Shown here piece by piece: positions 371-63,028 of a stretch of DNA of 64,000 nucleotides (the stretch's first letter is position 1; every line of letters begins with the position of its first letter). A program made the position numbers and the translations under genes. Origin of the DNA: Bacteroidaceae bacterium (lineage in GTDB: Bacteria; Bacteroidota; Bacteroidia; Bacteroidales; Bacteroidaceae); contig JAFXTC010000019.1 in assembly GCA_017525235.1 (NCBI GenBank), positions 1 to 64,000 on the forward strand, in the 5' to 3' direction. The notes below the pieces were generated by a model. That model searched no databases, had not been told where the DNA came from, and worked only from the letters and a program-made list of their open reading frames with translations.

Positions 371-398
371 TCTTTAATCTTCATTCTGCATTCTTCAT
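371..398. repeat. Heptad-periodic repeat (4 units)
   Basis: Four consecutive 7-mers: TCTTTAA, TCTTCAT, TCTGCAT, TCTTCAT. They lie between the GH20-like gene and the tRNA-Arg promoter and belong to the window-wide 7-bp-period family. Confidence 0.75.
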
Positions 399-408
399 TT
401 TTTTATTG

Positions 409-416
409 TATCTTTG
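409..416 (+). promoter_or_regulatory. Bacteroidota -7 box for tRNA-Arg
   Basis: TATCTTTG fits the TAnnTTTG -7 consensus and ends 22 bases before the tRNA 5' end. No clear -33 TTG is seen at the usual spacing. Confidence 0.45.
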
Positions 417-438
417 CAGCCGCAAAAGAAAAAAGGTC

Positions 439-513
439 GGTTCGGTAGCTCAGTTGGATTAGAGCAGCAGCCTTCTAAGCTGCGGGTCATGGGTTCGAGC
501 CCCATCCGAATCA
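439..513 (+). tRNA. tRNA-Arg (anticodon TCT)
   Basis: A full cloverleaf can be drawn. The acceptor stem is GGTTCGG with CCGAATC (one G-T pair). The D stem is GCTC/GAGC and the anticodon stem is GCAGC/GCTGC with loop CTTCTAA, so the anticodon is TCT and reads AGA. The T stem is ATGGG/CCCAT with loop TTCGAGC. The discriminator base is A513 and the CCA end is not encoded. Confidence 0.95.
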
Positions 514-550
514 CAATAAGAGCCCTCAACGGGGCTCTTATTGTTTATTC
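514..550 (+). terminator. Terminator after tRNA-Arg
   Basis: A 12-bp perfect stem (514-525 with 532-543, CAATAAGAGCCC pairing with its complement) and a 6-base loop start directly after the tRNA. A T-rich stretch (TTTATTC) follows. This is a good intrinsic terminator for the single-gene tRNA transcript. Confidence 0.7.
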
Positions 551-649
551 TGGTTTTATATATTACCACACTTCTGTTAAAATGCGGAATGTTTTGATAA
601 TTATCCATAAAAAGTTAATGTTACATAGAGAAGATAAAAGAAATAATCG

Positions 650-657
650 TAGATTTG
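650..657 (+). promoter_or_regulatory. -7 box for the SIMPL gene
   Basis: TAGATTTG matches TAnnTTTG, 42 bases before the chosen ATG at 700. No convincing -33 box is visible. Confidence 0.4.
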
Positions 658-699
658 CATAAATCAAAAATATATGAACCCATTATATTGGAGAAAATT

Positions 700-1422
700 A
701 TGAAGAACATTCAGTTTAAGTACATTGGCGAAGCATTGATTCTTGCCATTGGTCTTTTCTTGACAGGAGGAGCCATCAAGAGTGGTATTGTAAAATTCAA
801 AGAGATGGACCGTACCGTCACCGCTAAGGGGCTGTGCGAGAAAGAAGTTAAGGCCGATAAGGTTACTTGGCCTCTGAAATTCAAGGAATTGGGTAACGAC
901 CCTGCCGAGCTTTACGACCGTATTGAGAATAATACAAAGACGATAGTCTCATTCCTTAAAGAATACGGTCTTACTGACGAGGAAATCTCCATTGCCCCCC
1001 CCGCAATGGTAGACCAGCAAGCAAACATGAGCTACAGTAGCGAGCAAGTACGATATCGCTACAAGGCTAACTGCGTAGTAACAGTAGTGAGTAAGAATGT
1101 CGATTTGGTTCGTAAGATTGTAAGCAATCAGCCCAAGTTGATGCGTCAGGGAGTCACCATCGTTAGCAACGAGTACGACGAGACATCCAATGTAAGCTAC
1201 GAGTTCACGGGCTTGAATGAAATTAAACCTAAGATGATAGCCGAGGCTACCAAGAATGCCCGTAAGACAGCAGAGCAATTTGCAACGGATTCAGAAAGCG
1301 AACTGGGCAAGATTAAGACAGCCGATCAAGGTCAGTTCAGCATCAACGACCGCGACCAGAATACACCTTGGCTGAAAAACATCCGCGTAGTAACTACCGT
1401 GGTTTACTACCTGAAGGACTGA
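700..1422 (+). CDS. SIMPL-domain (DUF541) protein
   Basis: The 240-residue protein has an N-terminal hydrophobic segment (about residues 6-24) that is a signal anchor or uncleaved signal. A SIMPL/DUF541 domain follows, with the typical opening (RTVTAKGLCEKEVKADKVTW) and the later V-T-V-V-S and A-R-K-T-A-E-Q blocks. I chose the ATG at 700 because GGAGA sits 5 bases upstream and a -7 box lies at 650-657. The open frame runs further up to 655, but that part lies almost on top of the -7 box. SIMPL proteins are envelope proteins of poorly defined function. The gene stands alone between the tRNA and the convergent kinase gene. Confidence 0.85.
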   Translation: MKNIQFKYIGEALILAIGLFLTGGAIKSGIVKFKEMDRTVTAKGLCEKEVKADKVTWPLKFKELGNDPAELYDRIENNTKTIVSFLKEYGLTDEEISIAPPAMVDQQANMSYSSEQVRYRYKANCVVTVVSKNVDLVRKIVSNQPKLMRQGVTIVSNEYDETSNVSYEFTGLNEIKPKMIAEATKNARKTAEQFATDSESELGKIKTADQGQFSINDRDQNTPWLKNIRVVTTVVYYLKD

Positions 1423-1443
1423 ATTTAATTGATCGTTTAAACT

Positions 1444-2628
1444 TTAATACTGATCATACAATTCCTGCAGGAGGGTGAGTTTCTCGCCCTCTTTTTTTTC
1501 TATGTACGTGCCGCCGTAATAGAAGCATGCAAACCCACCTGAGACAATGCCCCATTTGCAAGCCTCACACAAGTCTAATCGAGAATTGAGCTTTGAGAAT
1601 TGAGAATTATTCATTTGGCGGGCCAATGAGCCTATAACACCACCGGCAAAATTGTCTCCACAACCAGTACTGTCACCCTTACGGCCTTCTTTTAGTGCTT
1701 TACCTACTGCAGCAGAAACAGGAAGGGTTTGCTGTGGAGCGTTACCAAAGAGCGGACTGTTGGCCCACAGATACACATCGCGTGCTCCGTTGGTGACCAG
1801 TACTGCCCCCACACCCTTCTCGCAGAAAAAAGTAATAGACGATGGAATGTCTGCACATCCGCTCAGGCGGAGTGCTTCTTCATGATCGACAATCAGCAGA
1901 TCCGTAAAAGGATAAGCCTCGTCGCTATCGCCCATCGGCCAACGCTGAGCAGGATTTTTCTTTTCGTTAAGGAAATCATAAACAGTATTGACAATAGTAA
2001 TACTACCCTGCTGCTTAGCCCGTTTTAGCATAGCCGTGAGTCCCTGATGAATCTTAGGCACAAGGGCTGTGCCTCCAAAGACGCATATATTGCTGTTGTA
2101 AAAGTCGTCATCCACCTCGTCAGGCAGGTAATGCCAAGAGGCACCTATGGTATTCACAAAAGTGCGCTCACCATGCCCATTGTCATATTGTGGGTCGGAC
2201 AGCACACTGGTAGAAGCCGTCTCGCTGCCTTTTTGCGTACGATAGTAGTTTAAACACACAGGGGTCTGACGCAACTTTTGCAACAACTCCTCCCCTACCT
2301 CATCATCGCCTTTGCAACCATAGAAGAATACCTCGCTCTCTTGCCATGCTAACTGCGCAGCATTGATAAGGGCTACTATGCAGGGCCCACCGATATTTTC
2401 CTTGTCGGCCTTGCGCCCCTTAGTAAGCTGGGGCAAGATATCGGTAGCAAAACTGTTCCCAGAGAAGTGCTCCAACTCTTCTTCAAACGTCAATTTACCT
2501 GGCTCCAATCCGCCATCACCAGCTTTCCTGCTTAGATACTTTCGAAACAATTCCGACGTAAAATCTACCTTATCATAAATGCGGTCGAGCAAACAACACC
2601 CAACCCCGCTTATTCGTACTTTTTTCAT
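1444..2628 (-). CDS. PfkB-family carbohydrate kinase
   Basis: The 394-residue cytoplasmic kinase has an early glycine-rich GGPCIVALINAAQ block for sugar binding. The PfkB signature near the C-terminus (DSTGCGDNFAGG) holds the catalytic Asp. It is the last gene of the minus-strand operon aldolase - GH92 - isomerase - kinase. From that context it probably phosphorylates fructose or a related ketose. The exact sugar cannot be read from sequence. The protein is longer than typical PfkB kinases (about 300-340). One reason is an extra segment, NNSQFSKLNSRL (coded around 1583-1608), which is made of 7-bp repeats inserted in frame just after the active-site helix. Confidence 0.85.
   Translation of the reverse strand: MKKVRISGVGCCLLDRIYDKVDFTSELFRKYLSRKAGDGGLEPGKLTFEEELEHFSGNSFATDILPQLTKGRKADKENIGGPCIVALINAAQLAWQESEVFFYGCKGDDEVGEELLQKLRQTPVCLNYYRTQKGSETASTSVLSDPQYDNGHGERTFVNTIGASWHYLPDEVDDDFYNSNICVFGGTALVPKIHQGLTAMLKRAKQQGSITIVNTVYDFLNEKKNPAQRWPMGDSDEAYPFTDLLIVDHEEALRLSGCADIPSSITFFCEKGVGAVLVTNGARDVYLWANSPLFGNAPQQTLPVSAAVGKALKEGRKGDSTGCGDNFAGGVIGSLARQMNNSQFSKLNSRLDLCEACKWGIVSGGFACFYYGGTYIEKKEGEKLTLLQELYDQY
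1583..1608. repeat. Heptad repeat inside the PfkB kinase gene
   Basis: On the coding strand the units are TCAATTC, TCAAAGC, TCAATTC plus a partial unit. It is in frame and codes for part of NNSQFSKLNSRL. Confidence 0.75.
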
Positions 2629-2718
2629 CTGACAGTTTACTGTTTTTGGCCGCCTTCGTTATTGCATTATAACGTTATTCCGTTATCACGACAATCTATT
2701 GCGACCCAACTTTTAATT

Positions 2719-3393
2719 TTACAAGAACTTTCCGTAATCTGAGCAGAGGAGGTGCATGGGTTGTTCGTCTTCCTCTATTTCGGGGAAGCGACCTACGGGA
2801 TTGTAGAAGCGGTTGTCTGTGTTATCATCGTTACACTGGCTAACTTCACCCACCATAACTTCTCCTTTGCCGGGTTCGCCGTAGAAGCGGTGATAGAGGT
2901 ACTGTTCCATGCAGATGCTCTGTCCCGGATGCAGAATAACCTTTCCACCTGGTTCCATAACATGTTCTATGCCGTCTATGCGGTAATACACTGGTGTATC
3001 GGCAAACTGCTCGTTCTTGTCGGCATTATAAAGTTCAATCACCAGATTGCCACCACCTCTGTTAATGATGTCCTCCATCTTTGACCAATGGAAGTGCATA
3101 GGCGTCTCTTGATTCTCCTCTACAATCATAATCTTTTCTGCATAGGGTTTCTTGTCCACACCATACTTGCCATTGCGGATGGTGAACAGGAAAAGGCCAC
3201 AGCGCAGGAAGTCGCCCGAGCCAAAGTCAGTAATGTCCCATCCCAGCATACGCTCTACGATATAATCTACCTTTTGGCGGTTAGCCTTCCAGTCGGCAAG
3301 ACTCCACTCTGCCCATTCGGGCAACACAAACTGACGTGATGCCAAGAAATCCTTAGCCTCGCGCAGAATCTGATTGATTTCACTACGTTTCAT
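2719..3393 (-). CDS. D-lyxose/D-mannose isomerase, cupin type
   Basis: The 224-residue protein resembles the D-lyxose ketol-isomerase family. These are cupin-fold, metal-dependent enzymes that interconvert D-lyxose and D-xylulose and usually also D-mannose and D-fructose. The expected metal ligands are present: H100 and H102 (MHFHW), E107, and H168 in EQYLYHRFYGE. There is no signal peptide, so it is cytoplasmic. It sits directly downstream of a GH92 alpha-mannosidase and upstream of a PfkB kinase, so mannose to fructose is the likely physiological reaction (inference). Confidence 0.85.
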   Translation of the reverse strand: MKRSEINQILREAKDFLASRQFVLPEWAEWSLADWKANRQKVDYIVERMLGWDITDFGSGDFLRCGLFLFTIRNGKYGVDKKPYAEKIMIVEENQETPMHFHWSKMEDIINRGGGNLVIELYNADKNEQFADTPVYYRIDGIEHVMEPGGKVILHPGQSICMEQYLYHRFYGEPGKGEVMVGEVSQCNDDNTDNRFYNPVGRFPEIEEDEQPMHLLCSDYGKFL

Positions 3394-3401
3394 GTTGTAT
3401 G

Positions 3402-3429
3402 TAAAGTTTAAAGTTTATGGTTTATTGCT
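3402..3429. repeat. Heptad repeat between GH92 and the isomerase gene
   Basis: The units on the plus strand are TAAAGTT, TAAAGTT, TATGGTT, TATTGCT. The repeat covers the last codons and stop of the GH92 gene and the short spacer before the isomerase start. Confidence 0.65.
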
Positions 3430-5583
3430 CATCTGCAGTTCCAGCGTGCCGCCTGCCGTCAGTTGTTCATGAGTAAGGAAAGGCTCTGTCAGAGGCTTCC
3501 CGTTCAGTCGGGCGCTCTGGATGAATTTGTTGTCTGACGAGATATCCTTTGCTCTGATGGTAAATGTCTTTCCGTTAGGCAGGTGAAGTGTTGTCTTCTC
3601 GAAAAAGGGACTCCCGATGGCATAAATAGTTGTTCCTGGTGTAACAGGGAAGAAGCCCATCATGGAGAAGACCACGAAAGCCGACATGCCACCGCCGTCT
3701 TCATCACCTGGCATACCAAGGTAAGAGTCGATGAAATAAGTGTCGATAAGGCTGTGAATATACTTCTGCGTTTTCCAAGGGGCACCCACATAGTCATAAA
3801 GATAAGGTATATGGAAACTTGGTTCGTTTCCCATCTGGAACATACCCATCAGACCTGTTGCATCGGGCAGCACATTATAGAAGCGGAACTTGGCCGTTCC
3901 CACGCCCATGTGGAAGAGCTCGTCCAGCTTTTCCTCAGCCTTCTTGTGTCCGCCCATCAACGTGAACAGTCCATCTAAGTCGTGCTTCACATCCCAGTTG
4001 AAAATATAAGCATTGTTCTCTGTGAAATAGGCTCGCCCATCGTGCAAAGGGTTAAAAGGCTCCACCCATTCACCCTTGTCGTCCTTGGGCCACATCATAC
4101 ATTGATCGGCACGGAAGACATTACGGTAATATTTCGAGCGCTCCATAAACAGTTTCTCGTCTTCCTTCTTGCCCAGTATCTTCGCCATCTGCGCAATACA
4201 CCAGTCGGAGTAACTATTCACAGTGGTCACCGACACACTCTGTCGGCGCTCCCAGTTGGGATCAACCTCGGGTATTGTCTCCTGTTCGCCCGGACGCAGA
4301 GCAGGATAGTAGCCGTGAGCATTGTAGAAGGTGTCCAGCGGAGTGGCCGGTCCTGTGCGCCAAGGCAGCATGGTACGTTCCAAAGAGTTTTTGCGGAAAC
4401 CCTCGTAGGCAGTCTCCATATCGAAACGCAGTCCTTTTGCCCAGGCATCCATCATCCAGACAGCCGCAAAATTTCCCGTCATGGCGGCCCACTCGCCCGA
4501 GGTCAGTGCAAAGCGTGGCATGATACCGCTTTCCTTGAACATCTCGATAACGGAGTTTATCTTCTGTACCTCCATGTCGGGGTTTAAGATAGTATGCAGT
4601 GGCTCCAATGCTATATGAGTGTCCCATAACCAGTTGTCCACGAAGAACGGCTGGTCCGACGTGTGGACCTTACGATCCCATGCGCTGAAAAACCGACCGT
4701 ACTCGTTGATATCTACCATACGTTCCGAACAACGATAGAGTGCCGTGTAGAAAGTCCGCTTATGCGCCTCCGTTCCACCGCTCACTTCTATCTGTCTCAA
4801 CCGCTTCTCCCATGTCTTCTTGGCATCTTGTTTCACGCGGTCGAAGTCGAACTGCGGAATCTCACGCTCCATATTAACTCGAGCCTGCTCTTTGCTGATA
4901 TAAGAGATTCCATAACGCATTATTACCACTTTCTTGTTCCCGTCGGCCGTCAGCATCAAATGTTTTGTGTCCTCTCCGGGATGGTGGATGTTGTGCATAT
5001 CGCAGTCGAATTCGGCATAAAGGTAGGCCGTCATATTTTCCTTACATTCGGGTTGCCCAAACCCTGCAGTACCCGTCACAACGCGATTGCCCTCATGGTC
5101 GTAAAAACCTATTGGCGTACGACTGCGGAAACGCATAGAATGCAGTCCATCGCCATCGAAAGTCATGCGTATGATGCCACTCTTTTTGGCTGGGGCGAAC
5201 TCAAAGGTCACGCCATCCAATTGTGCTCGGTAGTAATGTGGGTGTGTCTTCTCATTGTTGCAAACTCCTGGAGCCGACCAAACACTTTCCGGGTCGGACG
5301 TACAGAAAGGCATGAACCCGAATACCCAATGCCGTCTATGGTTGGGCATCTGCAAGGCAAAGTCATCAATCCAGTCGTCCAGCATGCTATTGCGCAAGGG
5401 AACAAAACGCAGCATCTCGTTAGGCTGGTGCATGGTCTGTCGCGTTGTCTCCAACAATACACTCACACCACCAATGGTCGGGTCGGCATAGTCTGTTAAT
5501 GATTTCTTCGAGTCACCTCTGCAAGGCAGTACCATCAGGCAAATACCAAGTATAAGAAATAATTTACCTATTTTCATGTTCAA
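3415..5583 (-). CDS. GH92 alpha-mannosidase
   Basis: The 722-residue exported glycoside hydrolase family 92 enzyme has an N-terminal hydrophobic signal ending near LPCRGDS. A lipoprotein site is possible, but the Pro before Cys is atypical. The beta-sandwich N-domain follows, then the (alpha/alpha)6 barrel with WLWDTHIALEPL. Near the C-terminus, PGDEDGGGMSAFVVFSMMGF matches the family's conserved block. GH92 enzymes are calcium-dependent exo-alpha-mannosidases acting mostly on alpha-1,2/1,3 linkages of yeast mannan or N-glycans. The linkage cannot be assigned here. The gene ends within a heptad repeat and is followed by the isomerase. Confidence 0.9.
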   Translation of the reverse strand: MNMKIGKLFLILGICLMVLPCRGDSKKSLTDYADPTIGGVSVLLETTRQTMHQPNEMLRFVPLRNSMLDDWIDDFALQMPNHRRHWVFGFMPFCTSDPESVWSAPGVCNNEKTHPHYYRAQLDGVTFEFAPAKKSGIIRMTFDGDGLHSMRFRSRTPIGFYDHEGNRVVTGTAGFGQPECKENMTAYLYAEFDCDMHNIHHPGEDTKHLMLTADGNKKVVIMRYGISYISKEQARVNMEREIPQFDFDRVKQDAKKTWEKRLRQIEVSGGTEAHKRTFYTALYRCSERMVDINEYGRFFSAWDRKVHTSDQPFFVDNWLWDTHIALEPLHTILNPDMEVQKINSVIEMFKESGIMPRFALTSGEWAAMTGNFAAVWMMDAWAKGLRFDMETAYEGFRKNSLERTMLPWRTGPATPLDTFYNAHGYYPALRPGEQETIPEVDPNWERRQSVSVTTVNSYSDWCIAQMAKILGKKEDEKLFMERSKYYRNVFRADQCMMWPKDDKGEWVEPFNPLHDGRAYFTENNAYIFNWDVKHDLDGLFTLMGGHKKAEEKLDELFHMGVGTAKFRFYNVLPDATGLMGMFQMGNEPSFHIPYLYDYVGAPWKTQKYIHSLIDTYFIDSYLGMPGDEDGGGMSAFVVFSMMGFFPVTPGTTIYAIGSPFFEKTTLHLPNGKTFTIRAKDISSDNKFIQSARLNGKPLTEPFLTHEQLTAGGTLELQMSNKP

Positions 5584-5586
5584 TCA

Positions 5587-6420
5587 CTAAAGCCTATTAT
5601 TACTTTCAAAAAGGAATATATGTTCTGTGACCATTTCACGTGATGCGTCTACCATCACTTGCTTCAGGGGGATGTAACCCTCATCGGGCTTCTGTTTCAT
5701 TCGTTCTGTAATACGTTTCATGATGCCACGCTGAATCGCTGTTGCAACGTTTATCTTGCAAATACCATTGTGAATACAAGCCTTGAAATCCTCTTCGCTT
5801 GTACCGCTGCCACCATGCAGCACCAAAGGCAGACGGTTTGCCTCGTGAATTTCTATAAGTCTTTTGATGTTCAGTTGCGGTGTATGAACATAGTGCCCAT
5901 GCAAATTGCCTATAGCAACAGCCAAGGCGTCTATGCCTGTAGCCTGGACAAACCGCACCGATTCATCCACATCCGTAAAGACGTCGGCCGTATCCTTTCC
6001 ACAATCGCCCACCTTACCCAGTTCGGCCTCCACATCTACGCCTGCCGCTTTTGCCATGCGAGTTACCTCCTTGGTTATGACCACATTCTCCTCAAACGGG
6101 AGCGCTGCACCATCGAACATCACAGAGGTGAAGCCCAACCGGATGGCTCGCACGCAAGTTTCTAGACTCTGCCCATGGTCGAGATGCACACAAACAGGCA
6201 CAGAAGAGCGCCTGGCAGCCTCCAAAAATAGCGGAGCCATCAGTTCCATTGGCGCCTCGGGAAACTGCACCTCAGCAAGTTGTAGAATAATGGGCGAACG
6301 TAGTTCCTCGGCAGCCTCCATGGCTCCCATTACATTTTCCAGACTTAGGCAATTAAATGCACCTACGGCATAGTGTCGTTCATTAGCGTCTTTTAGTATT
6401 TCACTTAAGGTTACTAACAT
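5587..6420 (-). CDS. Class II (zinc) ketose-bisphosphate aldolase
   Basis: The 277-residue class II aldolase is of the fructose/tagatose-bisphosphate type. Zinc ligands are visible in CVHLDHGQS, GNLHGHY and VLHGGSGT. The ATG at 6420 is preferred over the open frame reaching 6501: family alignment starts at MLVTLSEILKDANERHYAVG, and a -7 box lies at 6459-6466. It is the first gene of the operon and is only 3 bases from the GH92 gene. In this context it would cleave the phosphorylated ketose made by the downstream isomerase and kinase into two trioses. Whether its substrate is a 1-phosphate or a 1,6-bisphosphate is unknown. Confidence 0.88.
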   Translation of the reverse strand: MLVTLSEILKDANERHYAVGAFNCLSLENVMGAMEAAEELRSPIILQLAEVQFPEAPMELMAPLFLEAARRSSVPVCVHLDHGQSLETCVRAIRLGFTSVMFDGAALPFEENVVITKEVTRMAKAAGVDVEAELGKVGDCGKDTADVFTDVDESVRFVQATGIDALAVAIGNLHGHYVHTPQLNIKRLIEIHEANRLPLVLHGGSGTSEEDFKACIHNGICKINVATAIQRGIMKRITERMKQKPDEGYIPLKQVMVDASREMVTEHIFLFESNNRL

Positions 6421-6458
6421 AACTTTTATTTTTACTGCATTAAACCAGCTTTCACCTA

Positions 6459-6466
6459 CAAAGTTA
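6459..6466 (-). promoter_or_regulatory. -7 box for the mannose operon
   Basis: On the minus strand TAACTTTG matches TAnnTTTG, 38 bases before the aldolase ATG. The -33 box is not obvious. Confidence 0.4.
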
Positions 6467-6519
6467 CATATTTTTCTTAATTTAATAATGGTAATAATCA
6501 AAAATCAGATATTTTTGTG

Positions 6520-6527
6520 TAATTTTG
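6520..6527 (+). promoter_or_regulatory. -7 box for the GH2 gene
   Basis: TAATTTTG matches TAnnTTTG, 30 bases before the GH2 ATG at 6558. The -33 box is unclear. Confidence 0.4.
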
Positions 6528-6557
6528 CCAGCAAATAGAAATATAAACCGTTAAACA

Positions 6558-8414
6558 ATGCTAGAAAACAAGAGATTACTGACTATTGCTTCTGCAATGG
6601 TTTGCCTGCTGACAGCTTGGGCAGAAAAAAACGAGTTACCATTGATTCAAAATGTAATGGCTTATGAGTATCTTTCACTCAATGGTGAATGGAACTACAT
6701 CGTAGATGTGCAGGAAGAAGGCTATTACGATTATCGTATGAACCCTACACGTTGGGGGTTTTTCCAGAATGCAAAGCCACAAAAGCCCGAGGACCTTATA
6801 GAGTACGACTTTGACAAGTCGCCAACAATGAAAATTCCTTCTGACTGGAACACTCAAGACGAACGTCTCTTTTTCTACGAAGGCACAGTATGGTTTTATA
6901 AAAAGTTTAGAGTTGAGAGTTTAGCGTTTAGAGAAAATCGAGCTCTGCTCTACTTTGGTGCCGTGAATTACGATGCTCATGTGTATGTGAACGGACAACA
7001 TGTAGGGCATCACGTTGGAGGCTTTACACCTTTTAATTATGATGTAACAGACTTGTTGAAGGAAAGTGACAATAATGTTATTGTAAAGGTTGATAACAAG
7101 CGACATGCAGAAGATGTTCCTACACAGATTTTCGACTGGTGGAACTATGGTGGTATCACTCGCGATGTAAAGTTGGTGAAGATTCCTGCTGTATATCTTG
7201 AGGACTATAATATAAGCCTCACCCCTAACTCCTCTCCCGTGAACGAGAGGAAGAAAAATGCCAATTCTAAGACACGTGAAATCTCTTTCTCAGCTAAGCT
7301 GAATAAGGCTGAGGCAGGGCAGCAGGTTACCGTCTTCATCCCAGAACTGAAAATAGAGAAAACTTTCACCACGGATGCTGAAGGAAAAGTGAATAGTGAA
7401 AGTATAAAAGTGAAAAGTGAAAAATGCCAGCTTTGGTCGCCAGAGAATCCTAAACTTTATCAGGTAAAAATAAGTGTAGGAACCAACACTATTAGCGATG
7501 AGATAGGTTTACGTACCATAGAGACACATGACAAACAAATACTTCTAAACGGAAAGCCTATCTTCCTGAAAGGCATCAGCATACATAATGAAAAAACCAA
7601 CGGAGGCGGTCGTGCCAACAGTATTGAAGATGCACGCACTTTACTCTCATGGGCCAAGGAATTGGGCTGTAACTTTGTACGTCTTGCACACTATCCCCAC
7701 CATGAAGAAATGGTTCGCGAAGCAGAGAAAATGGGCATCTTGGTATGGTCGGAGATTCCTGTTTATTGGACAATCGCTTGGAAGAATCCTAAAACATACG
7801 AGAATGCCAAGAACCAGCTAACCGACATGATTGCTCGCGACCATAATCGTGCTAATGTTATCATATGGAGTATTGCCAATGAGACGCCACATTCACCCGA
7901 GCGCGACACCTTCCTAGGTAATCTGGCACAGTATGCTCGCAGTCTTGACTCAACCCGACTAATCTCTATGGCAATGGAAGTTACAGGTGCCTCAAACTAT
8001 GTAAATCGTTTGAACGATAACATGAACAAGTACGTAGATGTCGTAAGTTTCAATCAATATATTGGATGGTATCGGGATGTTAATGATGCACCCAAGATGA
8101 AGTGGGAGATTCCCTATAACAAACCAGTTATTATCAGTGAGTTTGGCGGTGGAGCCCGCTATGGGTTGCATGGTCCAAAGAATCAGCGCTGGACCGAAGA
8201 ATTTCAGGAAAACCTATACATAGAGAATTGTGCCATGCTTGACAAAATTGATGGTCTTGCAGGTACAACGCCTTGGATCTTAAAGGACTTCCGCTCTCCC
8301 CGGCGAGTACTGCCTGGTGTTCAAGACTACTACAACCGTAAGGGTCTCTTTAGCGATAAAGGCGAAAAGAAAAAGGCCTTCTATGTGCTGAAGAAGTGGT
8401 ATGAGGGGAAATAG
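6558..8414 (+). CDS. GH2 glycoside hydrolase (beta-galactosidase/beta-glucuronidase type)
   Basis: The 618-residue secreted or periplasmic enzyme has a signal peptide of about 22 residues ending LLTAWA. The family 2 sandwich follows, then an Ig-like domain and a TIM barrel. The acid/base is E442 (IIWSIANETP) and the nucleophile is E528 (IISEFGGGA), a normal spacing. NFVRLAHYPH is the typical barrel strand. Substrate is uncertain; the overall build resembles Bacteroidota beta-glucuronidase-like GH2 enzymes. Three unusual segments interrupt the beta domains: VESLAFREN (6903-6930), TPNSSPVNERKKN (7217-7250) and VNSESIKVKSEK (7389-7423). All are coded by low-complexity repeat DNA that stays in frame. 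Confidence 0.87.
   Translation: MLENKRLLTIASAMVCLLTAWAEKNELPLIQNVMAYEYLSLNGEWNYIVDVQEEGYYDYRMNPTRWGFFQNAKPQKPEDLIEYDFDKSPTMKIPSDWNTQDERLFFYEGTVWFYKKFRVESLAFRENRALLYFGAVNYDAHVYVNGQHVGHHVGGFTPFNYDVTDLLKESDNNVIVKVDNKRHAEDVPTQIFDWWNYGGITRDVKLVKIPAVYLEDYNISLTPNSSPVNERKKNANSKTREISFSAKLNKAEAGQQVTVFIPELKIEKTFTTDAEGKVNSESIKVKSEKCQLWSPENPKLYQVKISVGTNTISDEIGLRTIETHDKQILLNGKPIFLKGISIHNEKTNGGGRANSIEDARTLLSWAKELGCNFVRLAHYPHHEEMVREAEKMGILVWSEIPVYWTIAWKNPKTYENAKNQLTDMIARDHNRANVIIWSIANETPHSPERDTFLGNLAQYARSLDSTRLISMAMEVTGASNYVNRLNDNMNKYVDVVSFNQYIGWYRDVNDAPKMKWEIPYNKPVIISEFGGGARYGLHGPKNQRWTEEFQENLYIENCAMLDKIDGLAGTTPWILKDFRSPRRVLPGVQDYYNRKGLFSDKGEKKKAFYVLKKWYEGK
6903..6930. repeat. Heptad repeat inside the GH2 gene (first)
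   Basis: The units are AAGTTTA, GAGTTGA, GAGTTTA, GCGTTTA. They are read in frame within KKFRVESLAFREN. Confidence 0.75.
7217..7250. repeat. Short GC-richer hairpin element inside the GH2 gene
   Basis: The C-rich stretch CTCACCCCTAACT leads into CCTCTC (7231-7236), which pairs with GAGAGG (7245-7250). It is read in frame as SLTPNSSPVNER. It differs from the heptad family and looks like a separate interspersed element. Confidence 0.45.
7389..7423. repeat. Heptad repeat inside the GH2 gene (second)
   Basis: There are five units: GTGAATA, GTGAAAG, TATAAAA, GTGAAAA, GTGAAAA. They are read in frame as VNSESIKVKSEK. Confidence 0.8.
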
Positions 8415-8442
8415 GCTGATTTCGTTTTACAAACGGTTTTAC
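8415..8442 (+). terminator. Weak hairpin after GH2
   Basis: CGTTT (8423-8427) pairs with AAACG (8431-8435) and GTTTTA follows. The stem is short and lies between two convergent genes. It is a possible but weak terminator. Confidence 0.3.
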
Positions 8443-10352: not shown

Positions 10353-10359
10353 AACTATG

Positions 10360-10367
10360 CAAAAATA
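10360..10367 (-). promoter_or_regulatory. -7 box for the esterase gene
   Basis: On the minus strand TATTTTTG matches TAnnTTTG and ends 7 bases before the ATG at 10352. This would place the transcript start almost at the start codon. Confidence 0.35.
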
Positions 10368-10432
10368 CAAATTATTCATCTAATTGAGCATAAAAACAGG
10401 TGACTATTTACAAGAGTTCCAAGAAAAAAGGT

Positions 10433-10440
10433 TAACTTTG
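10433..10440 (+). promoter_or_regulatory. -7 box for the xylan-use operon
   Basis: TAACTTTG matches TAnnTTTG, 43 bases before the symporter ATG at 10484. The -33 box is not clear. Confidence 0.4.
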
Positions 10441-10483
10441 CAGAATAATAATCAACAAATATATCAAATATATCACTGATACT

Positions 10484-11878: not shown

Positions 11879-11891
11879 CGATTAGCGGTAA

Positions 11892-11926
11892 CTTTAAACT
11901 ATAAACTATAATCTTTAAACTTTAAA
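11892..11926. repeat. Heptad repeat directly abutting the GH43 start codon
   Basis: Five units, CTTTAAA, CTATAAA, CTATAAT, CTTTAAA, CTTTAAA, run straight into the ATG at 11927. No Shine-Dalgarno sequence is present in the repeat. Confidence 0.85.
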
Positions 11927-14822: not shown

Positions 14823-14832
14823 ATCATCAGCT

Positions 14833-41760: not shown

Positions 41761-41761
41761 C

Positions 41762-50902: not shown

Positions 50903-50937
50903 ATTTAAACCGTAAACGGTAAACAGTAAACTATCAA
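50903..50937. repeat. Heptad repeat between the Alg14- and Alg13-like genes
   Basis: Five units, ATTTAAA, CCGTAAA, CGGTAAA, CAGTAAA, CTATCAA, lie directly upstream of the ATG at 50944. Confidence 0.8.
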
Positions 50938-50943
50938 TTACAA

Positions 50944-56943: not shown

Positions 56944-57695
56944 TGATTCGATACTTAGCATATTGCCAAGGGGATATTCTTCTCACAACAGAGGGGAATA
57001 TCCCTTTTGGATTGGAGCCGCCAATCCCATTAAAGCCATGGAACTGCATTACCACCTTACACGTAGGAGACAATGAAGTCAAGGTAATTCGTTTGGATAA
57101 TCCTGTAGCAGGCAAAGAAGGCTTGCAGATGATGGGATTGCGCAAAACACATGCCCTGTTAAGCCCAGAAGACTACCAATTAGCAGGCAAGGGGGCCGAA
57201 CTTATCTATTGGGACCAGAATACGCGCTACTGCGGCGTTTGTGGTGCTCCAACGAAATGGATGACTGATATCAGTAAGAAATGTCCTGAGTGCGGCAAGG
57301 AATGGTGGCCCTCCGTTTCAACAGCAATAATCGTTAGAATACAGCGCGACGACCGTATTCTGCTAGTCAGGGCACGAAACTTCAGAACCAATCATCACGG
57401 TCTTGTAGCAGGATTCTTGGAAACAGGGGAATCTTTGGAGCAATGTGTAGAGCGTGAGGTACGCGAAGAGGCTGGCATTAAGATTAAGAACCTGCGTTAC
57501 TTTGACAGTCAGCCTTGGCCTTACCCCTTTGGACTGATGGTTGGCTTTACTGCCGATTATGACAGAGGCGAACTGAACCTTCAGAAAGAAGAGCTATGCG
57601 AAGGCGGATGGTTTACCCGTGATAATCTGCCTGAGATTCCTGACAAAGCATCCATTGCCCGTAAGTTGATTGATGACTGGCTCTCTAAAGTCTAA
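56943..57695 (+). CDS. nudC: NAD(+) diphosphatase (NADH pyrophosphatase), Nudix
   Basis: The 250-residue protein has the NudC zinc ribbon (CGVCG and CPECG, with W and Y context). The Nudix box is GFLETGESLEQCVEREVREE plus AG. The NudC-specific SQPWPYPFGLM motif distinguishes it from other Nudix enzymes. It cleaves NAD(H), and in other bacteria removes NAD caps from RNA. Translation starts at a GTG that shares a base with the previous stop, so it is coupled to the phosphohexomutase gene. The last codons and stop are formed by a heptad repeat. Confidence 0.92.
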   Translation: MIRYLAYCQGDILLTTEGNIPFGLEPPIPLKPWNCITTLHVGDNEVKVIRLDNPVAGKEGLQMMGLRKTHALLSPEDYQLAGKGAELIYWDQNTRYCGVCGAPTKWMTDISKKCPECGKEWWPSVSTAIIVRIQRDDRILLVRARNFRTNHHGLVAGFLETGESLEQCVEREVREEAGIKIKNLRYFDSQPWPYPFGLMVGFTADYDRGELNLQKEELCEGGWFTRDNLPEIPDKASIARKLIDDWLSKV

Positions 57696-57718
57696 GGACT
57701 AAAGCCTAAGGTCTAATT
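57684..57718. repeat. Heptad repeat at the nudC stop codon
   Basis: Five units, TCTAAAG, TCTAAGG, ACTAAAG, CCTAAGG, TCTAATT, cover the last nudC codons, its stop and the gap to the convergent GH27 gene. Confidence 0.8.
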
Positions 57719-60387
57719 ATTTTCTTCCCGTTCTTTATTACTATTCCCTTTTTGGTATTGCCACCATTAACCCTACGTCCTGAAAGGTCGTAAATGCCAT
57801 TTGCATATTTTTCACTTTTCACTCCCTCACTTTTCACTTCACCAATTCCATCATAATAATCAGGTAGGGGTTGGTATAGCAGGGAGAAGTTGTCGAAACA
57901 GCACCAGCTGCTACCATTATTCTTATCGCATCTCAAGCCAAAAGTCAGCGTACCTTTCTCCTGCAACGTATAAGCAAGTTCGTTCTTATAACATCCTTCA
58001 GCAAAACGGATGCCGGCAGCACGCATACTGTGTGGATAACCGTTCTGATTATCCACAGAACCATATTGCGAGGCCTCTGGCCACGTTTCGGAATATAGCG
58101 ACTTCAGCTTCACCTTCTTGTCATTGATATAAAGGTATGCCTGAATAGTTTCTTTACCGCTCTTATAGGCAGCCCCTCCATCGTTTCCTTTAGGACGATA
58201 GAAGGCATTACAACGAACGGTATAGACACCGGGGCGCATATTAGAAAGGGACTGGTACATATCGAACGCCTTGTTGAACTCCTCGCCACAACCATCGCGG
58301 TAAGTTGGTTCGCCCTCCCATCCTTCTTTGGTAGAGAAATCATAATTGACAAGGAATAACGTCATATCAAGATATTCGCCCTCCTTGGGAACTGCAGCAG
58401 TAGATTTCAGATATGTGTTTACAGCTGACTTCAGGTTAGTCAAGGCAGTACTTACCTGTGACTCTGTGGCTGCTTTTGAAAGAGTCGCATCAGCGTTCTC
58501 AATCTTCTTCACGAATGTTGTAAGGGCAGAAGTTTCCATGCTGGCCTCTACATTCTTTTCGGCATAGGCTTTCCAGAAATTGTATTCCTCGCAAAGCGGC
58601 ATAATCTTGGCAATGGTATTATGCAAAGACTGCGTTTCAGTAAGTATTGTCTTTATTTTGGTTTCTGTCAAGCCTTCTGCTTTTGCTCTTGTTAAAAGAT
58701 TTTCAATGCTTTTGCGTAACTTGTCTGTTATCAGGTTGTTATGCAACATCACTTCAAGCTGATATATAGTCTCCTCAAGTCGTCTGTTCGAGAAGGTTTT
58801 CTCGCCAACTTTCTCTAGACTCATGTAGTCGATATTTGGCATCCATCCTGTTTCGTTATAGAGTTCTATACTGTTGGATCCAGCCTTCAGATGAAGTGTC
58901 ATATTATACTCCTTGAAGATCGACCAGTTAGAGGTACTCATATTTATCTTGCCCATCTCCTCACCGTTCAGGCCAACTGTTAATGAACGAGCTTCAGCCG
59001 CGCTTCCGCAGAAGTGAACCGTATAATCTGCCTCCTCTGCCACAAAAACATCGCGCCAAAGCAATGAGTTGCTTCTCTTACCACCCAACCAACTGGTATA
59101 AGCACCTCCGCTGGCAGCAGAGTTGGTCTCATAGATAGCAGAGCCAACCGACTGATTGTTATAAATCTCCTGATAGTCGTGCATAAAACCGGTCTCAGCC
59201 TCATAAATATAACGGAACAGGCGGTTCTCTGCTTCCAGTTTGTAGATGCGTGTACCATGAGCTGGCACCACAACAGAAAGAGCGCCTTCCATCTCTCCTA
59301 AGTCTTGATGTTCAAATAAGTCGCGCACCTTCACATTACCGCCTAAATCAACCTCGCTGAAACTGATGCACATTTCCGCTTCTCTGTCAGACGGGTTGTA
59401 AAGTGCCACAGCTCGTGTGTTGCCATGAAGCGTAAGAATGTCCTTCACCAGCACATAAGTCTCTCCCACATGCTGCACCACGTATGCCTGCAAGCCCAAA
59501 GGGTCCTGATTCAGAGCTATGAGCTCAGGATTTTTCAGCAATTCAAGCGGACGTTCCTTGATGGTAGCCATATTGCAGCCAATCAGCAAGGGGCTCGACA
59601 TGATGCACCACATGCCAAAGTGTGTCTTGTCCTCTTCATCCGACATAGACCGGCCCACTTCCAACATATCCATATCATTGTAAGTACCATCGTAGCAATA
59701 AGCCGACAGATACAAATTCTCAGCCAGAATGCCCTTCACAGAAGCCCATCCGTCGTAAATGTCGCCCGTTGTACGCCAAGATGTTGAGATATCGTGGCAC
59801 CAAGTGCCCGGATAAGCCCAACGACATAGGTTGTAGCGCACATCGCGACCCGTATTCACAATAGCATCATGGATAGCCGTATATTGTTCCTGCTCATTCA
59901 AATTAAGATGACGGCCTCCACAATAGTCAACCTTGATAAAATCGAACTCGCATTCATTGAAATAATAATCTGCATCCACCTGCTCATAACCGTACATTCC
60001 CACATTTGTGTTCTGCGTATCGCCATTGCTAAGACTGCCGCATGTACAGTCGCCAGCATCGCTATATATACCAGCCTTCAAGCCTTTGGAATGGATGTAA
60101 TCACTTACAACCTTCAATCCGTTAGGGAAGCGTTGCGGGTGAATCTTTACCTTACCATTGGATAAACGACCGTACTGAAAGCCATCATCAATATTAATGT
60201 ACTGGTAGCCTGCATCCTTCAGTCCCTGAGAGACCATCGCATCAGCCTGCCCCTTTATAATTTCCTCAGATATATTAACAGCAAAGGTATTCCATGAGCT
60301 CCAACCCATTGTAGGACCTTCAACCTGTGCATTCATGGCATGCGCATTCAGCAGAATGGCAACAGCGAAAAGAGAACGTTTCATCAT
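57706..60387 (-). CDS. Modular GH27 alpha-galactosidase with CBM domains and sorting tail
   Basis: The 893-residue secreted enzyme has a signal peptide ending HAMNAQ. The GH27 barrel has nucleophile D154 (FIKVDYCGG) and acid/base D240 (YNDMDMLEVG). A C-terminal beta domain follows, then a CBM-like sandwich (about residues 390-540, YTVHFCGSAAEARSL), a helical stretch (about 545-660) and a further sandwich ending CCFDNFSLLYQ. The tail NGIYDLSGRRVNGGN to the end is a typical sorting tail. It is preceded by GEVKSEGVKSEK, coded by a heptad-like repeat. The start at 60387 has AGGAA 5 bases upstream; ATG at 60384 is an alternative. Confidence 0.92.
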   Translation of the reverse strand: MMKRSLFAVAILLNAHAMNAQVEGPTMGWSSWNTFAVNISEEIIKGQADAMVSQGLKDAGYQYINIDDGFQYGRLSNGKVKIHPQRFPNGLKVVSDYIHSKGLKAGIYSDAGDCTCGSLSNGDTQNTNVGMYGYEQVDADYYFNECEFDFIKVDYCGGRHLNLNEQEQYTAIHDAIVNTGRDVRYNLCRWAYPGTWCHDISTSWRTTGDIYDGWASVKGILAENLYLSAYCYDGTYNDMDMLEVGRSMSDEEDKTHFGMWCIMSSPLLIGCNMATIKERPLELLKNPELIALNQDPLGLQAYVVQHVGETYVLVKDILTLHGNTRAVALYNPSDREAEMCISFSEVDLGGNVKVRDLFEHQDLGEMEGALSVVVPAHGTRIYKLEAENRLFRYIYEAETGFMHDYQEIYNNQSVGSAIYETNSAASGGAYTSWLGGKRSNSLLWRDVFVAEEADYTVHFCGSAAEARSLTVGLNGEEMGKINMSTSNWSIFKEYNMTLHLKAGSNSIELYNETGWMPNIDYMSLEKVGEKTFSNRRLEETIYQLEVMLHNNLITDKLRKSIENLLTRAKAEGLTETKIKTILTETQSLHNTIAKIMPLCEEYNFWKAYAEKNVEASMETSALTTFVKKIENADATLSKAATESQVSTALTNLKSAVNTYLKSTAAVPKEGEYLDMTLFLVNYDFSTKEGWEGEPTYRDGCGEEFNKAFDMYQSLSNMRPGVYTVRCNAFYRPKGNDGGAAYKSGKETIQAYLYINDKKVKLKSLYSETWPEASQYGSVDNQNGYPHSMRAAGIRFAEGCYKNELAYTLQEKGTLTFGLRCDKNNGSSWCCFDNFSLLYQPLPDYYDGIGEVKSEGVKSEKYANGIYDLSGRRVNGGNTKKGIVIKNGKKIIRP
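57809..57837. repeat. Heptad-like repeat before the GH27 sorting tail
   Basis: On the plus strand TTTTCAC, TTTTCAC, an 8-base variant TCCCTCAC and TTTTCAC. It is in frame on the minus strand as VKSEGVKSEK. Confidence 0.65.
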
Positions 60388-60415
60388 TGTTCCTAGGTTT
60401 ATTTGTAATTTTGTT

Positions 60416-62083
60416 TTATTTAACCAAGTACCTGTCACCTGTTTCCTTTACAATCTTTCGCTTGTAGGTTTCAGGATATCCCGGACGCTTAACAGGTCGC
60501 TGATTGCCGCCAGGAGTCTTCAGATACTGACCATTATCATCTTGCTGCTTAACAGCCATATCGTTGTACTTGACGATAATGGTCTGAGCCAACTGATTCC
60601 ACTCATCCATCATACTCTGCGCCGTACGATGAGAATAGGCTGTGAGGAACTTGCGGGCCTCGGTTTCTGACATAGCAGCAGCTTTTTTCTCTGTTTCTTC
60701 CTGGAGAGAGTTATAGTCGGTTTCCAAACGGTCACGAACAGCCTGAACCTCGGGGAAGATAATAGAATAACGCAAATAGGTCATGTTGCTAACCCAGTTC
60801 TGAACCCAGTAGGCTGAACGTGTAGAAAAGTGAAAGGTATCTGCTGTACGGGCAGCATAACATTCGGGCACACTCTCTACGCCACAGTATACTGGTGTAA
60901 AGGGCACCATATTGGCATCATCATTGCCCCACCATACCACACCGCCTATGTAATCAGGTAGCCAGGAACGCATCTGAGAAACATACACATTGGCAGATTG
61001 CTGGGTACTGATGGGGCGTTCGTTGAAGTAATCATTGTCATCAACCTTGAACCTGAGTGGCGTAGGACGATAAGGCATCTCCCAAGGCCCCATACCCAGG
61101 TCATCCTGAATAGCCATCGGCGTACCCTCGTAATGGTCACGCATCATATCTTTAACATCCTGAACGCTGAGAGGGGCTTTTGGCTTTACATACAAAGGCA
61201 TGGGATTTGCCTTTACATCACCCATTGCATAAGCAAGGAACGGCTTCATATCATCTGCCGCCCATTTGTTGAAGAAACTCCAGATACGAGCCTCGCAGAA
61301 ACGTAATGCACCAAAGTCAGCTGGGGCGTAAGCATCTGCAAATGAAAAATCTGCATCCTTACCATCGAAAAAGCCTTTCTCACGTGCAAAAGAGATTACA
61401 TCCTTACTATAGAGACAGTTTTGCTTGTCCTTGAGAGGGAACTGACGGATGCGGCTCTGGTTGGCATGACCGCTGATGCAATCATCTGGAATACGAACGG
61501 CCACCCATACGGCACCCTTACGCCCAGGGCCCTTTCCTATCATATCCATTATCCATGCTTCGTTGGGGTCGGCAATAGAAAAGCTCTCACCTTCGCTGCC
61601 ATATCCGTAATCCTCAACCAACTTGGTCATGATAGCGATAGCCTCACGGGCTGTCTTGGCACGCTGTAAGGTGACATACATCAGACTTCCGTAGTCAAAC
61701 ATCCCTGTGACGGTATCACAAAGTTCTTCACGACCACCATATGTTGTCTCGTGAATGCTGAGCTGATGTTCGTTCATCAGACCCACTACGGTGTAGGTCT
61801 CTTCTGTCTCGGGAATTTCACCAAGATAGTTATTGGTCTCATAATGATAAAGCGCACGCATCTCACCCTTCTTGTGCTTGCCACCAGGAAGGAAATTCAT
61901 AAAGCCGTATGCACCATAGTCATCGCAACTGTATGAGATAATTACACTGCCATCCTTACTGGCTTTCTTGCCTACAATAAGGTTGGTGCAAGCTTTGGCT
62001 TCGCCAATTGAGAATTGAAAATTGAAAATTGAAAACTTTAGAACTCCTATCAACAAAAATGAGAACAAGAATATTCTTTTCAT
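60416..62083 (-). CDS. C69-family dipeptidase
   Basis: The 555-residue exported Ntn-hydrolase-fold peptidase has its nucleophile Cys at the mature N-terminus (ACTNLIVGKKASKDGSVI). MNEHQLSIHETTYGG and YGYGSEGESFSIADPNEAWI are typical PepD/C69 blocks. It cleaves dipeptides in the periplasm. Strikingly, part of the signal peptide (KFSIFNFQFSIGEAKA) is coded by four TCAATTN heptamers. It is downstream of nadC on the same strand and 28 bases before GH27, so it may be in one operon with them. Confidence 0.9.
   Translation of the reverse strand: MKRIFLFSFLLIGVLKFSIFNFQFSIGEAKACTNLIVGKKASKDGSVIISYSCDDYGAYGFMNFLPGGKHKKGEMRALYHYETNNYLGEIPETEETYTVVGLMNEHQLSIHETTYGGREELCDTVTGMFDYGSLMYVTLQRAKTAREAIAIMTKLVEDYGYGSEGESFSIADPNEAWIMDMIGKGPGRKGAVWVAVRIPDDCISGHANQSRIRQFPLKDKQNCLYSKDVISFAREKGFFDGKDADFSFADAYAPADFGALRFCEARIWSFFNKWAADDMKPFLAYAMGDVKANPMPLYVKPKAPLSVQDVKDMMRDHYEGTPMAIQDDLGMGPWEMPYRPTPLRFKVDDNDYFNERPISTQQSANVYVSQMRSWLPDYIGGVVWWGNDDANMVPFTPVYCGVESVPECYAARTADTFHFSTRSAYWVQNWVSNMTYLRYSIIFPEVQAVRDRLETDYNSLQEETEKKAAAMSETEARKFLTAYSHRTAQSMMDEWNQLAQTIIVKYNDMAVKQQDDNGQYLKTPGGNQRPVKRPGYPETYKRKIVKETGDRYLVK
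62005..62032. repeat. Heptad repeat inside the C69 signal-peptide region
   Basis: On the minus strand there are four units: TCAATTT, TCAATTT, TCAATTC, TCAATTG. They are in frame and code for FNFQFSIG. Confidence 0.88.
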
Positions 62084-62108
62084 ATTCCTCAGACCTTAAA
62101 CTTTTAAA

Positions 62109-62981
62109 CTAAATCTTCAACTTATCGCTATTAGCAGCTTTAAAGCTCATGTCCAAGCCTTTTACGCTGTGAGTGAGTGCACCGAATGAGATGAAGTCAA
62201 CACCTGCCTTCGCATACGGAATCATGGTATCGAAGGTAATGCCACCACTGGACTCTGTCTCACAACGACCAGCAACCAGTTCTACCGCTTTCTTGGTATC
62301 CTCGGGAGTAAAGTTATCAAACATGATACGATCACAACCCTCGGCAAGAGCCTCGTCCAATTCTTTCCAATTACGAACCTCACACTCAATCTTCAGGTTC
62401 TTGCCTTTCTCCTTGCAATACTGCTTGGCACGGGAAATGGCATTGTGAACACCTCCACAGAAATCGATGTGGTTGTCCTTGAGCAAAATCATATCGAACA
62501 GTCCTATACGATGATTCATGCCACCACCAATCTTAACTGCCTCCTTCTCCAGCATGCGCATACCTGGGGTTGTCTTACGAGTATCCAGCACACGTGTTTT
62601 GGTACCGGCATCGATAAGTGCCTGCTGATACTTGTGGGTCATGGTAGCAATGCCGCTCATACGCTGCAAGATATTAAGCATAAGACGCTCTGTCTGCAAA
62701 AGGCTCTGCACCTTGCCCTTCACACTCATCACAATATCACCAGGCTTCACGTGGGCCCCGTCTTGGATATAAACCTCAACCTGCATGGTAGGGTCAAACC
62801 TATGAAAAACTTGCTTAGCAATCTCAACGCCAGCAAAGATACCTTCTTCCTTGATAAGAAGTTTACTCTCACCCATCTCTGTATCAGGAATACAGCACAG
62901 CGTGGTATGGTCGCCATCACCTATATCCTCTGCAAATGAGAGGTCGATGAGCCTGTCGTTTAATTCTTCTACACTTAACAT
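62109..62981 (-). CDS. nadC: Nicotinate-nucleotide pyrophosphorylase (carboxylating)
   Basis: The 290-residue enzyme converts quinolinate and PRPP to nicotinate mononucleotide in NAD synthesis. Characteristic blocks are EDIGDGDHTT at the start, TRVLDTRKTTPGMRMLEK for substrate binding, and KIGGGMNHRIGLFDMILLKDNHI. Near the end is SSGGITFDTMIPYAKAGVDFIS. It is full length. It follows rlmH, with a heptad repeat filling the gap. Confidence 0.96.
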   Translation of the reverse strand: MLSVEELNDRLIDLSFAEDIGDGDHTTLCCIPDTEMGESKLLIKEEGIFAGVEIAKQVFHRFDPTMQVEVYIQDGAHVKPGDIVMSVKGKVQSLLQTERLMLNILQRMSGIATMTHKYQQALIDAGTKTRVLDTRKTTPGMRMLEKEAVKIGGGMNHRIGLFDMILLKDNHIDFCGGVHNAISRAKQYCKEKGKNLKIECEVRNWKELDEALAEGCDRIMFDNFTPEDTKKAVELVAGRCETESSGGITFDTMIPYAKAGVDFISFGALTHSVKGLDMSFKAANSDKLKI

Positions 62982-63000
62982 CGGAACAATTATTATTTAA

Positions 63001-63028
63001 CAATTTACAATTAACAACTAACAATGAA
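63001..63028. repeat. Heptad repeat between rlmH and nadC
   Basis: The units are CAATTTA, CAATTAA, CAACTAA, CAATGAA. More degenerate units (CTAAAGT, CTTAACT) continue to the rlmH stop at 63048. Confidence 0.75.

Follow-up and report, generated by a model that had tools for sequence, protein, structure and literature searches.

The window analyzed here, the 64,000-nucleotide stretch G000:C34:1-64000 (contig JAFXTC010000019.1 of the Bacteroidaceae bacterium assembly GCA_017525235.1), contains numerous short, degenerate tandem arrays with a 7-bp period, both between genes and in frame inside them. These heptad arrays are probably copies, some young and some decayed, of small dispersed elements that are non-autonomous and have heptad arms, comparable to REPINs (hairpin-forming doublets of repetitive extragenic palindromic [REP] sequences) and Rickettsia palindromic elements. 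The arrays are dispersed and species-specific in their presence and most often comprise four units, and the members of one family that carries a 12-bp core have sharp boundaries, pair inward and can form hairpins. The source is a metagenome-assembled genome (MAG) of 2.6 Mb in 69 contigs, estimated as 72.7% complete.

A lag scan of the window, in which a locus was counted when at least 15 of 21 positions matched at a given lag, returned 18 loci at lag 7 versus 0 to 3 at each other lag from 2 to 10; the harmonic lag 14 gave 15 loci and lag 11 gave 4. A segment scan identified 18 arrays at or near coordinates listed in an earlier sequence-only reading of the window, and Tandem Repeats Finder added 57809-57839, which includes an 8-mer, yielding 19 arrays in agreement with the "at least 19 loci" of that reading. 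When 61 pieces of the same genome (1,013,185 bp, ∼40% of the MAG) were scanned at a threshold of 11, we obtained 143 arrays of period 7 compared to a single array in a third-order Markov control. The other periods yielded 32 (period 6), 28 (period 8), 21 (period 9), 5 (period 10), 2 (period 5) and 1 (period 4), and the strictest threshold (17) left 70 arrays at period 7, 8 at period 6 and 9 at period 8. Synthetic arrays of at least 28 bp were recovered at a rate of at least 96%, and the detection threshold limits the recovery of short ones. Lag 7 and period 7 thus dominate both data sets, the comparison with periods 6, 8 and 9 proposed by the sequence-only reading fell in favor of its repeat family, and the family extends beyond the window across the sampled MAG. 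The same sample held 29 arrays of period 12 and 34 of period 22, the latter being a separate kind of repeat. The period-22 arrays include some with a palindromic CACGTG or relatives of it (L080:13709-13788, L082:16557-16637, L100:6379-6492, L089:4879-4946 and others) and a second kind of the form GTCCG...CGGAC.

An insert in the GH67 gene of the window holds a sharply bounded, dispersed half-element of ∼42 bp, AA-(RTGAAGA)4-ATTTGCTNCCGC, in which the heptads precede the 12-bp core. Using positions 1-18000 of the window as query against eight closely related species (lepA region 81-85% identical), the GH67 insert was matched at about two dozen other places among the matches listed. A focused search with this insert gave 21 to 48 matches (to either arm) per genome among the matches listed, in nine of nine genomes, and a query with the related locus L336 matched 95 of 139 genomes of the genus, most of the listed matches lying on its element halves; the sequence is therefore short, dispersed and present in high copy number, as in REPIN-type systems. 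Individual copies, when read, consisted of four heptads followed by ATTTGCTNCCGC. Alignment of 227 non-identical halves showed 0.4 to 2.0 bits of information per position inside the half and ∼0 bits beyond both ends, except for 0.6 bit at the third base after the core and 0.4 bit at the base before AA. Exactly four heptads preceded the core in 158 of the 227; these loci came largely from a search pattern of ∼1.5 heptads plus core, such that only the outer heptads and the boundaries were unselected. Three of the arrays that had been described as plain period-7 repeats are copies of this half-element, namely 13284-13324 and the degenerate copies 57803-57839 and 364-400 (both on the minus strand). 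The earlier picture of a single family of plain arrays stands and is extended: what disperses appears to be a block of about four heptads, in some cases joined to a 12-bp core and an inverted partner.

Among 245 halves we found 30 inward-facing pairs with spacers of 11 to 119 nt, all at distinct places with none repeating another, and the closest outward-facing pair was separated by 245 nt. Two inward pairs in relatives folded with RNA z-scores of -12.9 and -11.5, consistent with hairpin-capable inverted doublets of the REPIN type. The inward pairs, a minority of copies, also have the terminal inverted repeats of miniature inverted-repeat transposable elements (MITEs). An autonomous element between more distant inward halves was considered, and the three pairs more than 250 nt apart held no recognizable transposase frame. 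At one loop preceding DLCAAPGGK in loci fetched from named genomes, in a gene that we take to be rRNA-methyltransferase-like, L336 has a single half and L286 an inverted pair. We had considered this loop as two insertions in opposite orientations; because one locus has a single half and the other an inverted pair, shared descent is as likely as two insertions, i.e., two hits or one hit with later loss.

Orthologous sites have turned over extensively. Sister species carry, at the GH67, GH2, PfkB and intergenic sites, other heptad words, unrelated GC-rich hairpins or nothing. In 71 comparisons at 24 sites, 7 had the same unit, 32 a different unit and 32 no array above threshold, so the outcome in which all orthologues carry identical segments was not observed. 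This set comprises the arrays of three pieces (the window, L080 and L089), minus those that lay within 220 bp of a piece end or for which a match to either flank was missing; two comparisons repeat one gap, and some arrays of one insert or gap were counted as separate sites. The gap was at most 15 nt in 6 of the 32 comparisons without an array, and such near-empty sites correspond to 11890-11926, 57684-57716, L080:9885-9927 and L089:12249-12277. One GC-rich hairpin, CTCACCCCCAACCCCTCTCC...GAGAGGGGAG, sits in L177, L168 and L176 at the loops that hold heptad blocks in the window (13283, 6904 and 1577, respectively). After deduplication (35 comparisons at 21 sites), the mean unit distance was 2.46 versus 3.06 ± 0.19 for random pairs, and a distance of 0 or 1 was found in 7 of the 35 comparisons versus 2.6 expected. 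These data bear on an unlikely explanation in which old arrays persist at fixed permissive sites and ectopic gene conversion among them rewrites only the word, leaving site and length unchanged. The lower-than-random unit distance fits this scheme, as do the GH2 site and the one following the stop codon at L089:17317, where the same loop holds blocks of similar length and different words. The scheme does not account for the presence/absence cases, the unrelated GC-rich hairpins at the same loops or the occurrence of RTGAAGA halves with their core at many places in one genome.

The size and composition of the arrays were assessed in the genome sample. Only 7 of the 143 arrays were perfect; the median length was 33 bp (quartiles 29 and 36.5), with 52 of the 143 in a peak at 32-35 bp. 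Units were counted by a loose rule (whole units with at most one mismatch each, seeded on two perfect units) or a strict rule (three or more perfect units). When each family was tabulated by dataset, four was the most frequent count in 13 of the 14 rows; three rows contain just 3 or 4 arrays. By the loose rule, for this genome and for relatives plus named loci, respectively, four units were present in 6/10 and 148/231 arrays of RTGAAGA, 7/10 and 14/25 of AGTTKAG, 5/9 and 8/19 of GTTTACN, 11/34 and 13/33 of TAACCNN, 2/4 and 5/14 of TCAATGY, and 2/3 and 2/4 of ATTCATA, which is too rare to judge. The lone exception was TCAAYTN in this genome, with 13 arrays at four units and 14 at five among 42 by the loose rule (20 of 29 were at four by the strict rule); in relatives and named loci, 35 of 87 TCAAYTN arrays had four units. 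Arrays of periods 6, 8 and 9 had similar median lengths (29-32 bp), so a block length near 30 bp, rather than a count of four, may be the rule. The consensus units of the 143 arrays fell into 52 of 1172 cyclic, strand-independent classes, compared to ∼122 expected from composition-matched genome heptamers, and 133 of the 143 arrays join through single-change steps between units, a figure that stands without a null.

The small number of perfect arrays, narrow lengths, four-unit mode and few unit classes indicate that the arrays are not ordinary slippage repeats, and the view of the sequence-only reading that slippage alone is insufficient is borne out. Simple-sequence repeats of 7-nt units that grew locus by locus through polymerase slippage would have near-perfect units and freely varying copy number, neither of which was found here, and slippage is an improbable origin. 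It has precedent in excerpts of published work that describe an excess of heptamers in bacteria and propose slippage as its source (PMC4679880, PMC4692102), and some arrays outside the family are long and nearly or wholly perfect (L227, L228 and L234). Moreover, the most variable phase of the heptad carried 0.50 of the mismatches versus 0.41 in the null (132 of the 143 arrays, the longer ones), which fits duplication of variant units. Slippage fails to explain why a non-repeat core is copied together with the block. The phase result lends weak support to the suggestion that variation is confined to two or three positions of the unit; at least three states at one phase were found in 43 of the same arrays versus 41 in the null, and our own notion of one hypervariable position per heptad was rejected since the number of states was no better than chance.

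The arrays of the window are given below, with gene boundaries picked by hand from the open-frame list and with the corresponding sites of relatives where these are informative; all were found by the segment scan except the one at 57803-57839.

364-400 (minus strand), degenerate RTGAAGA half-element, with heptad array 371-402; the site is intergenic and lies upstream of tRNA-Arg (439-514), and sister species G142 (L172) has a close array, (TTCATTC)n, at the corresponding place.
1577-1608, heptad block that encodes NSQFSKLNSRL in PfkB; at this site other species carry either a CATTGAA array or a GC-rich hairpin, or lack both.
3402-3432, heptad block over a stop codon and a short intergenic gap; relatives have (GTTTACN)n, (GTTTAGA)4 and (GTTGAAA)4 blocks.
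6904-6931, heptad block in GH2, peptide KFRVESLAFR; the unit is retained in L166, a weak heptad remnant is in L167, and another array or hairpin is found elsewhere.
7384-7426 (plus strand), heptad block in GH2, GKVNSESIKVKSEKC, also found by Tandem Repeats Finder; the aligned position has (TCAATGT)3-4 in four relatives and (TCTCAAT)4 in one.
10064-10103, heptad block CTNTAAC in the SASA esterase gene (Pfam).
11890-11926, heptad block that takes up the whole gap ahead of the ATG at 11927; the gap is missing in G098 (L159; 2 nt) and G078 (L150) has a different sequence.
13284-13324 (plus strand), half-element in GH67, A-(RTGAAGA-like)x4-ATTTGCTTCCGC.
13338-13369 (plus strand), (AATTNTC)4AATT block in GH67, adjoining the half-element.
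14265-14296 (plus strand), (AATTNTC)4AATT block in GH67; the G019 orthologue (L027, L052) carries a GGARAAT array in this loop.
18667-18697, heptad block over the 3' end of gene 17999-18682.
35460-35496 (plus strand), heptad block near the N-terminus of a GT2-family gene (Pfam).
39442-39486 (plus strand), heptad block in gene 38800-39945.
41755-41786, heptad block over a stop codon.
50906-50945, TAAACNG block reaching the ATG at 50944.
57684-57716, TCTAARG block spanning two convergent stop codons; G124 (L125) has the TCTAARG unit, G057 and G066 have GGTTAGC blocks, and G098 has 11 bp.
57803-57839 (minus strand), degenerate half-element in the GH27 C-terminal region, including the 8-mer (Tandem Repeats Finder).
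62006-62035 (minus strand), TCAATTN block that encodes FSIFNFQFSI in the N-terminal part of the C69 peptidase.
62990-63024, heptad block between genes.

Ten of the 18 segment-scan arrays lie wholly in genes, five cross a gene end and three are outside. In-frame placement, as had been reported, was verified for PfkB, GH2 (two arrays), the SASA esterase, GH67, GH27, C69 and two glycosyltransferase-like genes, the second of which (38800-39945) has no Pfam family at E 1e-5. For GH67, three of the four arrays proposed by the sequence-only reading exceeded the threshold; the fourth, near 14240, is sub-threshold and visible by eye only. Non-coding sequence accounts for 34% of array bases versus 4.4% of the window. 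This ∼8-fold per-base enrichment outside genes, along with several blocks just upstream of promoter-like TANNTTTG boxes (by eye, not counted; we take TANNTTTG to be such a box), could point to functional binding arrays for transcription or translation regulators or nucleoid sites that are kept by selection. We consider this very unlikely because many blocks lie within conserved genes, orthologues seldom keep the word, and some same-genus relatives have none of the TCAAYTN pattern. Other features of the window include dispersed ATGTAGGC repeats with an 11/22-bp period at 17414-17522 and 17749-17885, of which relatives have many copies; TTCTCTAGAGAATTT palindromes near 17600-17690, between the two ATGTAGGC stretches; and a long protein with two similar halves at 45816-50414. 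The peptide EEEAPQPPKGGDTD encoded by the GT2 gene (35436-36512) presumably resembles another dispersed insert.

The distribution of the repeats among hosts is patchy. An exact scan of named genomes for the half-element gave at least 119 matches, 80 of which were listed; 77 of those 80 were from Prevotella, Prevotellaceae, Bacteroidaceae or Bacteroidales, two were "uncultured bacterium" entries of one MAG, and one was an Atopobiaceae contig that is possibly mis-binned. Many of the matching MAGs among those listed carry ruminant gut sample names. The TCAAYTN pattern occurred in 111 of 251 genomes of the family and in 38 of 296 of a phylum sample; within one genus it ranged from 384 hits in one species to 0 in at least two others. 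The reversed-pattern control was also raised in the rich genomes, which we ascribe to its being nearly identical to TCAACTN. A sample of 20 genomes of the same genus (335 kb) contained 25 period-7 arrays versus 10 to 13 at periods 6, 8 and 9, and in 245 kb from other families of the order, there was 1 versus 5 to 6; the excess is therefore not general in the order. In L184, L199, L201, L205, L207 and L208, heptad blocks recur (by eye) at one loop of similar C-termini, which we assume to be a sorting domain, between D-L-S/A-G-R and a K-G-I-Y-I-like stretch. An assembly or binning artefact, for which one could cite the incomplete, 69-contig nature of the MAG, is scarcely credible given that the same families are found in many separate MAGs, in frame and at orthologous places.

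Divergent HUH proteins resembling REP-associated tyrosine transposases (RAYTs) are a candidate mobilizing enzyme only. In the 40% sample, tblastn located two such genes of this genome, L080:15645-16751 and L089:5435-6532 (both on the minus strand), and two relatives of these proteins match NCBIfam REP_Tyr_transpos below its cut-off. A Pfam Y1_Tnp search had given one match in G000 and none in the array-rich genomes G128, G049 and G313. Reading this as RAYT absence was abandoned when tblastn with the divergent RAYT-like proteins recovered the two additional genes in the G000 sample, so absences in the Y1_Tnp search mean little. Any Y1_Tnp match was present in 13 of 20 picked core-matching genomes versus 6 of 16 picked genomes lacking a core match. 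Frames of at least 350 aa with a partial match were found in 9/20 versus 0/16, a contrast read after the fact; we do not count this as evidence because tblastn places in the RAYT-like family a short frame from G082 (L371), a genome without a match. G022, one of the 16 genomes without a core match, has a 440-aa frame with a nearly full Y1_Tnp match. Dispersed hits beside the L080 RAYT-like gene were rejected as REP sequences since they are a coding C-terminal region (by eye). A dispersed palindrome lies at L089:4954-5086, near the L089 RAYT-like gene.

We favor the reading that the arrays are dispersed elements. The arms of such an element would be blocks of about four imperfect 7-bp units (28-36 bp), the half AA-(RTGAAGA)4-ATTTGCTNCCGC being the best-defined family, and two facing halves over a spacer of mostly 19 to 54 nt would fold into a long hairpin similar to those of REPINs and Rickettsia palindromic elements. 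New copies would insert into intergenic gaps, at the ends of genes and, with the frame kept, into permissive loops of proteins, and would then decay or be replaced, with the result that sister species have different blocks at the same loop. We infer that the elements spread through copying in a transposition-like manner, perhaps with single-stranded hairpin DNA as the template, and that the process also accounts for the blocks that lack a core. Several results weigh against this reading. Some orthologous sites share descent: the mean unit distance below random and the excess of near-identical units indicate this for a minority of sites. Eight of the 32 comparisons without an array keep a weak period-7 segment. 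Comparison of GH67 and GH2 orthologues, which had been suggested as a check for clean insertions, gave different words, hairpins or nothing at the site and did not resolve an insertion to the base; neither a target-site duplication nor an exact empty site could be pinned down, and the bases beside most sites differ too. Most arrays of this genome lack the core, which a tolerant search reached at 7 places in 1.01 Mb. The GH67 copy does not fold (z = -0.19), most of the 245 halves are single, and 10 have same-direction neighbors within 73 nt. Of the neighboring arrays of this genome, 5 were inverted, 3 were direct and 16 fell in neither class, so its general arrays give no clear sign of inversion. 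There was no half-element within 1 kb (or to the piece end) of the RAYT-like genes in 10 pieces, of which L030 and L056 are one place. A lesser excess also exists at periods 6, 8 and 9 in the 1.01-Mb sample.

A more speculative extension, to which we give little credence, is a dispersal system that writes a fixed four 7-bp units whatever the unit sequence. Such mobile DNA with a built-in ruler, e.g., a HUH nuclease or polymerase that copies or recognizes four heptads, could feed several word families in blooms between sister species and steadily rewrite protein loops. If the dispersed-element reading is correct, an abundant group of ruminant-gut bacteria harbors tiny mobile elements of an unnamed class in frame in its enzymes, with loops, N-terminal regions and intergenic gaps altered within the span of sister species. 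It would also explain odd peptide strings (NSQLS..., VKSEEFA...) in proteins of these bacteria. With its consensus, boundaries and candidate enzyme, it would provide a testable element with which to address an open question, namely what makes heptamers so frequent among the tandem repeats of bacteria.

We compared the heptad elements with known systems, drawing on excerpts of the cited papers. A high repeat density in Bacteroidota and a subset with 6-9 bp units that is highly enriched in prokaryotic phyla have been reported (PMC12699852), and the excerpted text does not name these elements. We found no description of such elements in the Prevotella group in the open-access literature, in keeping with the statement of the sequence-only reading that it knew of no named element of this kind. 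The BrickBuilt MITE of Porphyromonas gingivalis (PMC4596501) is likewise a tandem repeat within a MITE-like element of a Bacteroidales genome; it differs by its 23-nt unit, leader and tail, and its 19 copies in ATCC 33277 are always intergenic. The TAACTGA heptamers of Beggiatoaceae, Cyanobacteria and some Bacteroidetes, with 2-6 copies in the main genome, are similar in forming heptamer tandem arrays with a scattered phylogeny (PMC4679880), whereas they consist of one exact word, lie mostly upstream of start codons and, in the excerpted account, have no described core or inverted-doublet family. The GGGAATC and GGGGAYT heptamers of Xanthomonas and Nostoc (PMC4692102), which are over-represented between genes, also form many arrays per genome that vary between close relatives; in contrast to the present arrays, they are G-rich and quadruplex-forming, with no element core described in the excerpt. 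REPINs are short, high-copy, non-autonomous REP doublets that form hairpins, with singlets as remnants and lineage-specific families (PMC3116915). The present elements resemble them in all these respects, including inverted doublets with a spacer that folds to a hairpin, and differ in that the arms are four 7-bp units plus a 12-bp core, often lie inside genes and, in the 10 pieces with RAYT-like genes, do not occur within 1 kb of these. Rickettsia palindromic elements are palindromic repeats found in frame in unrelated protein genes (PMC10969869), and in-frame insertion in protein genes is shared here; the sequence and host phylum are different, the arms are heptads, and copies also lie between genes. 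The consensus of the 227 halves ends without the GTAG tag of the REPIN unit and does not contain the CGTC tag of Rickettsia palindromic elements (PMC3733652), so we file the elements as neither. By analogy, their architecture appears to work like that of a REPIN and their habit like that of a Rickettsia palindromic element.

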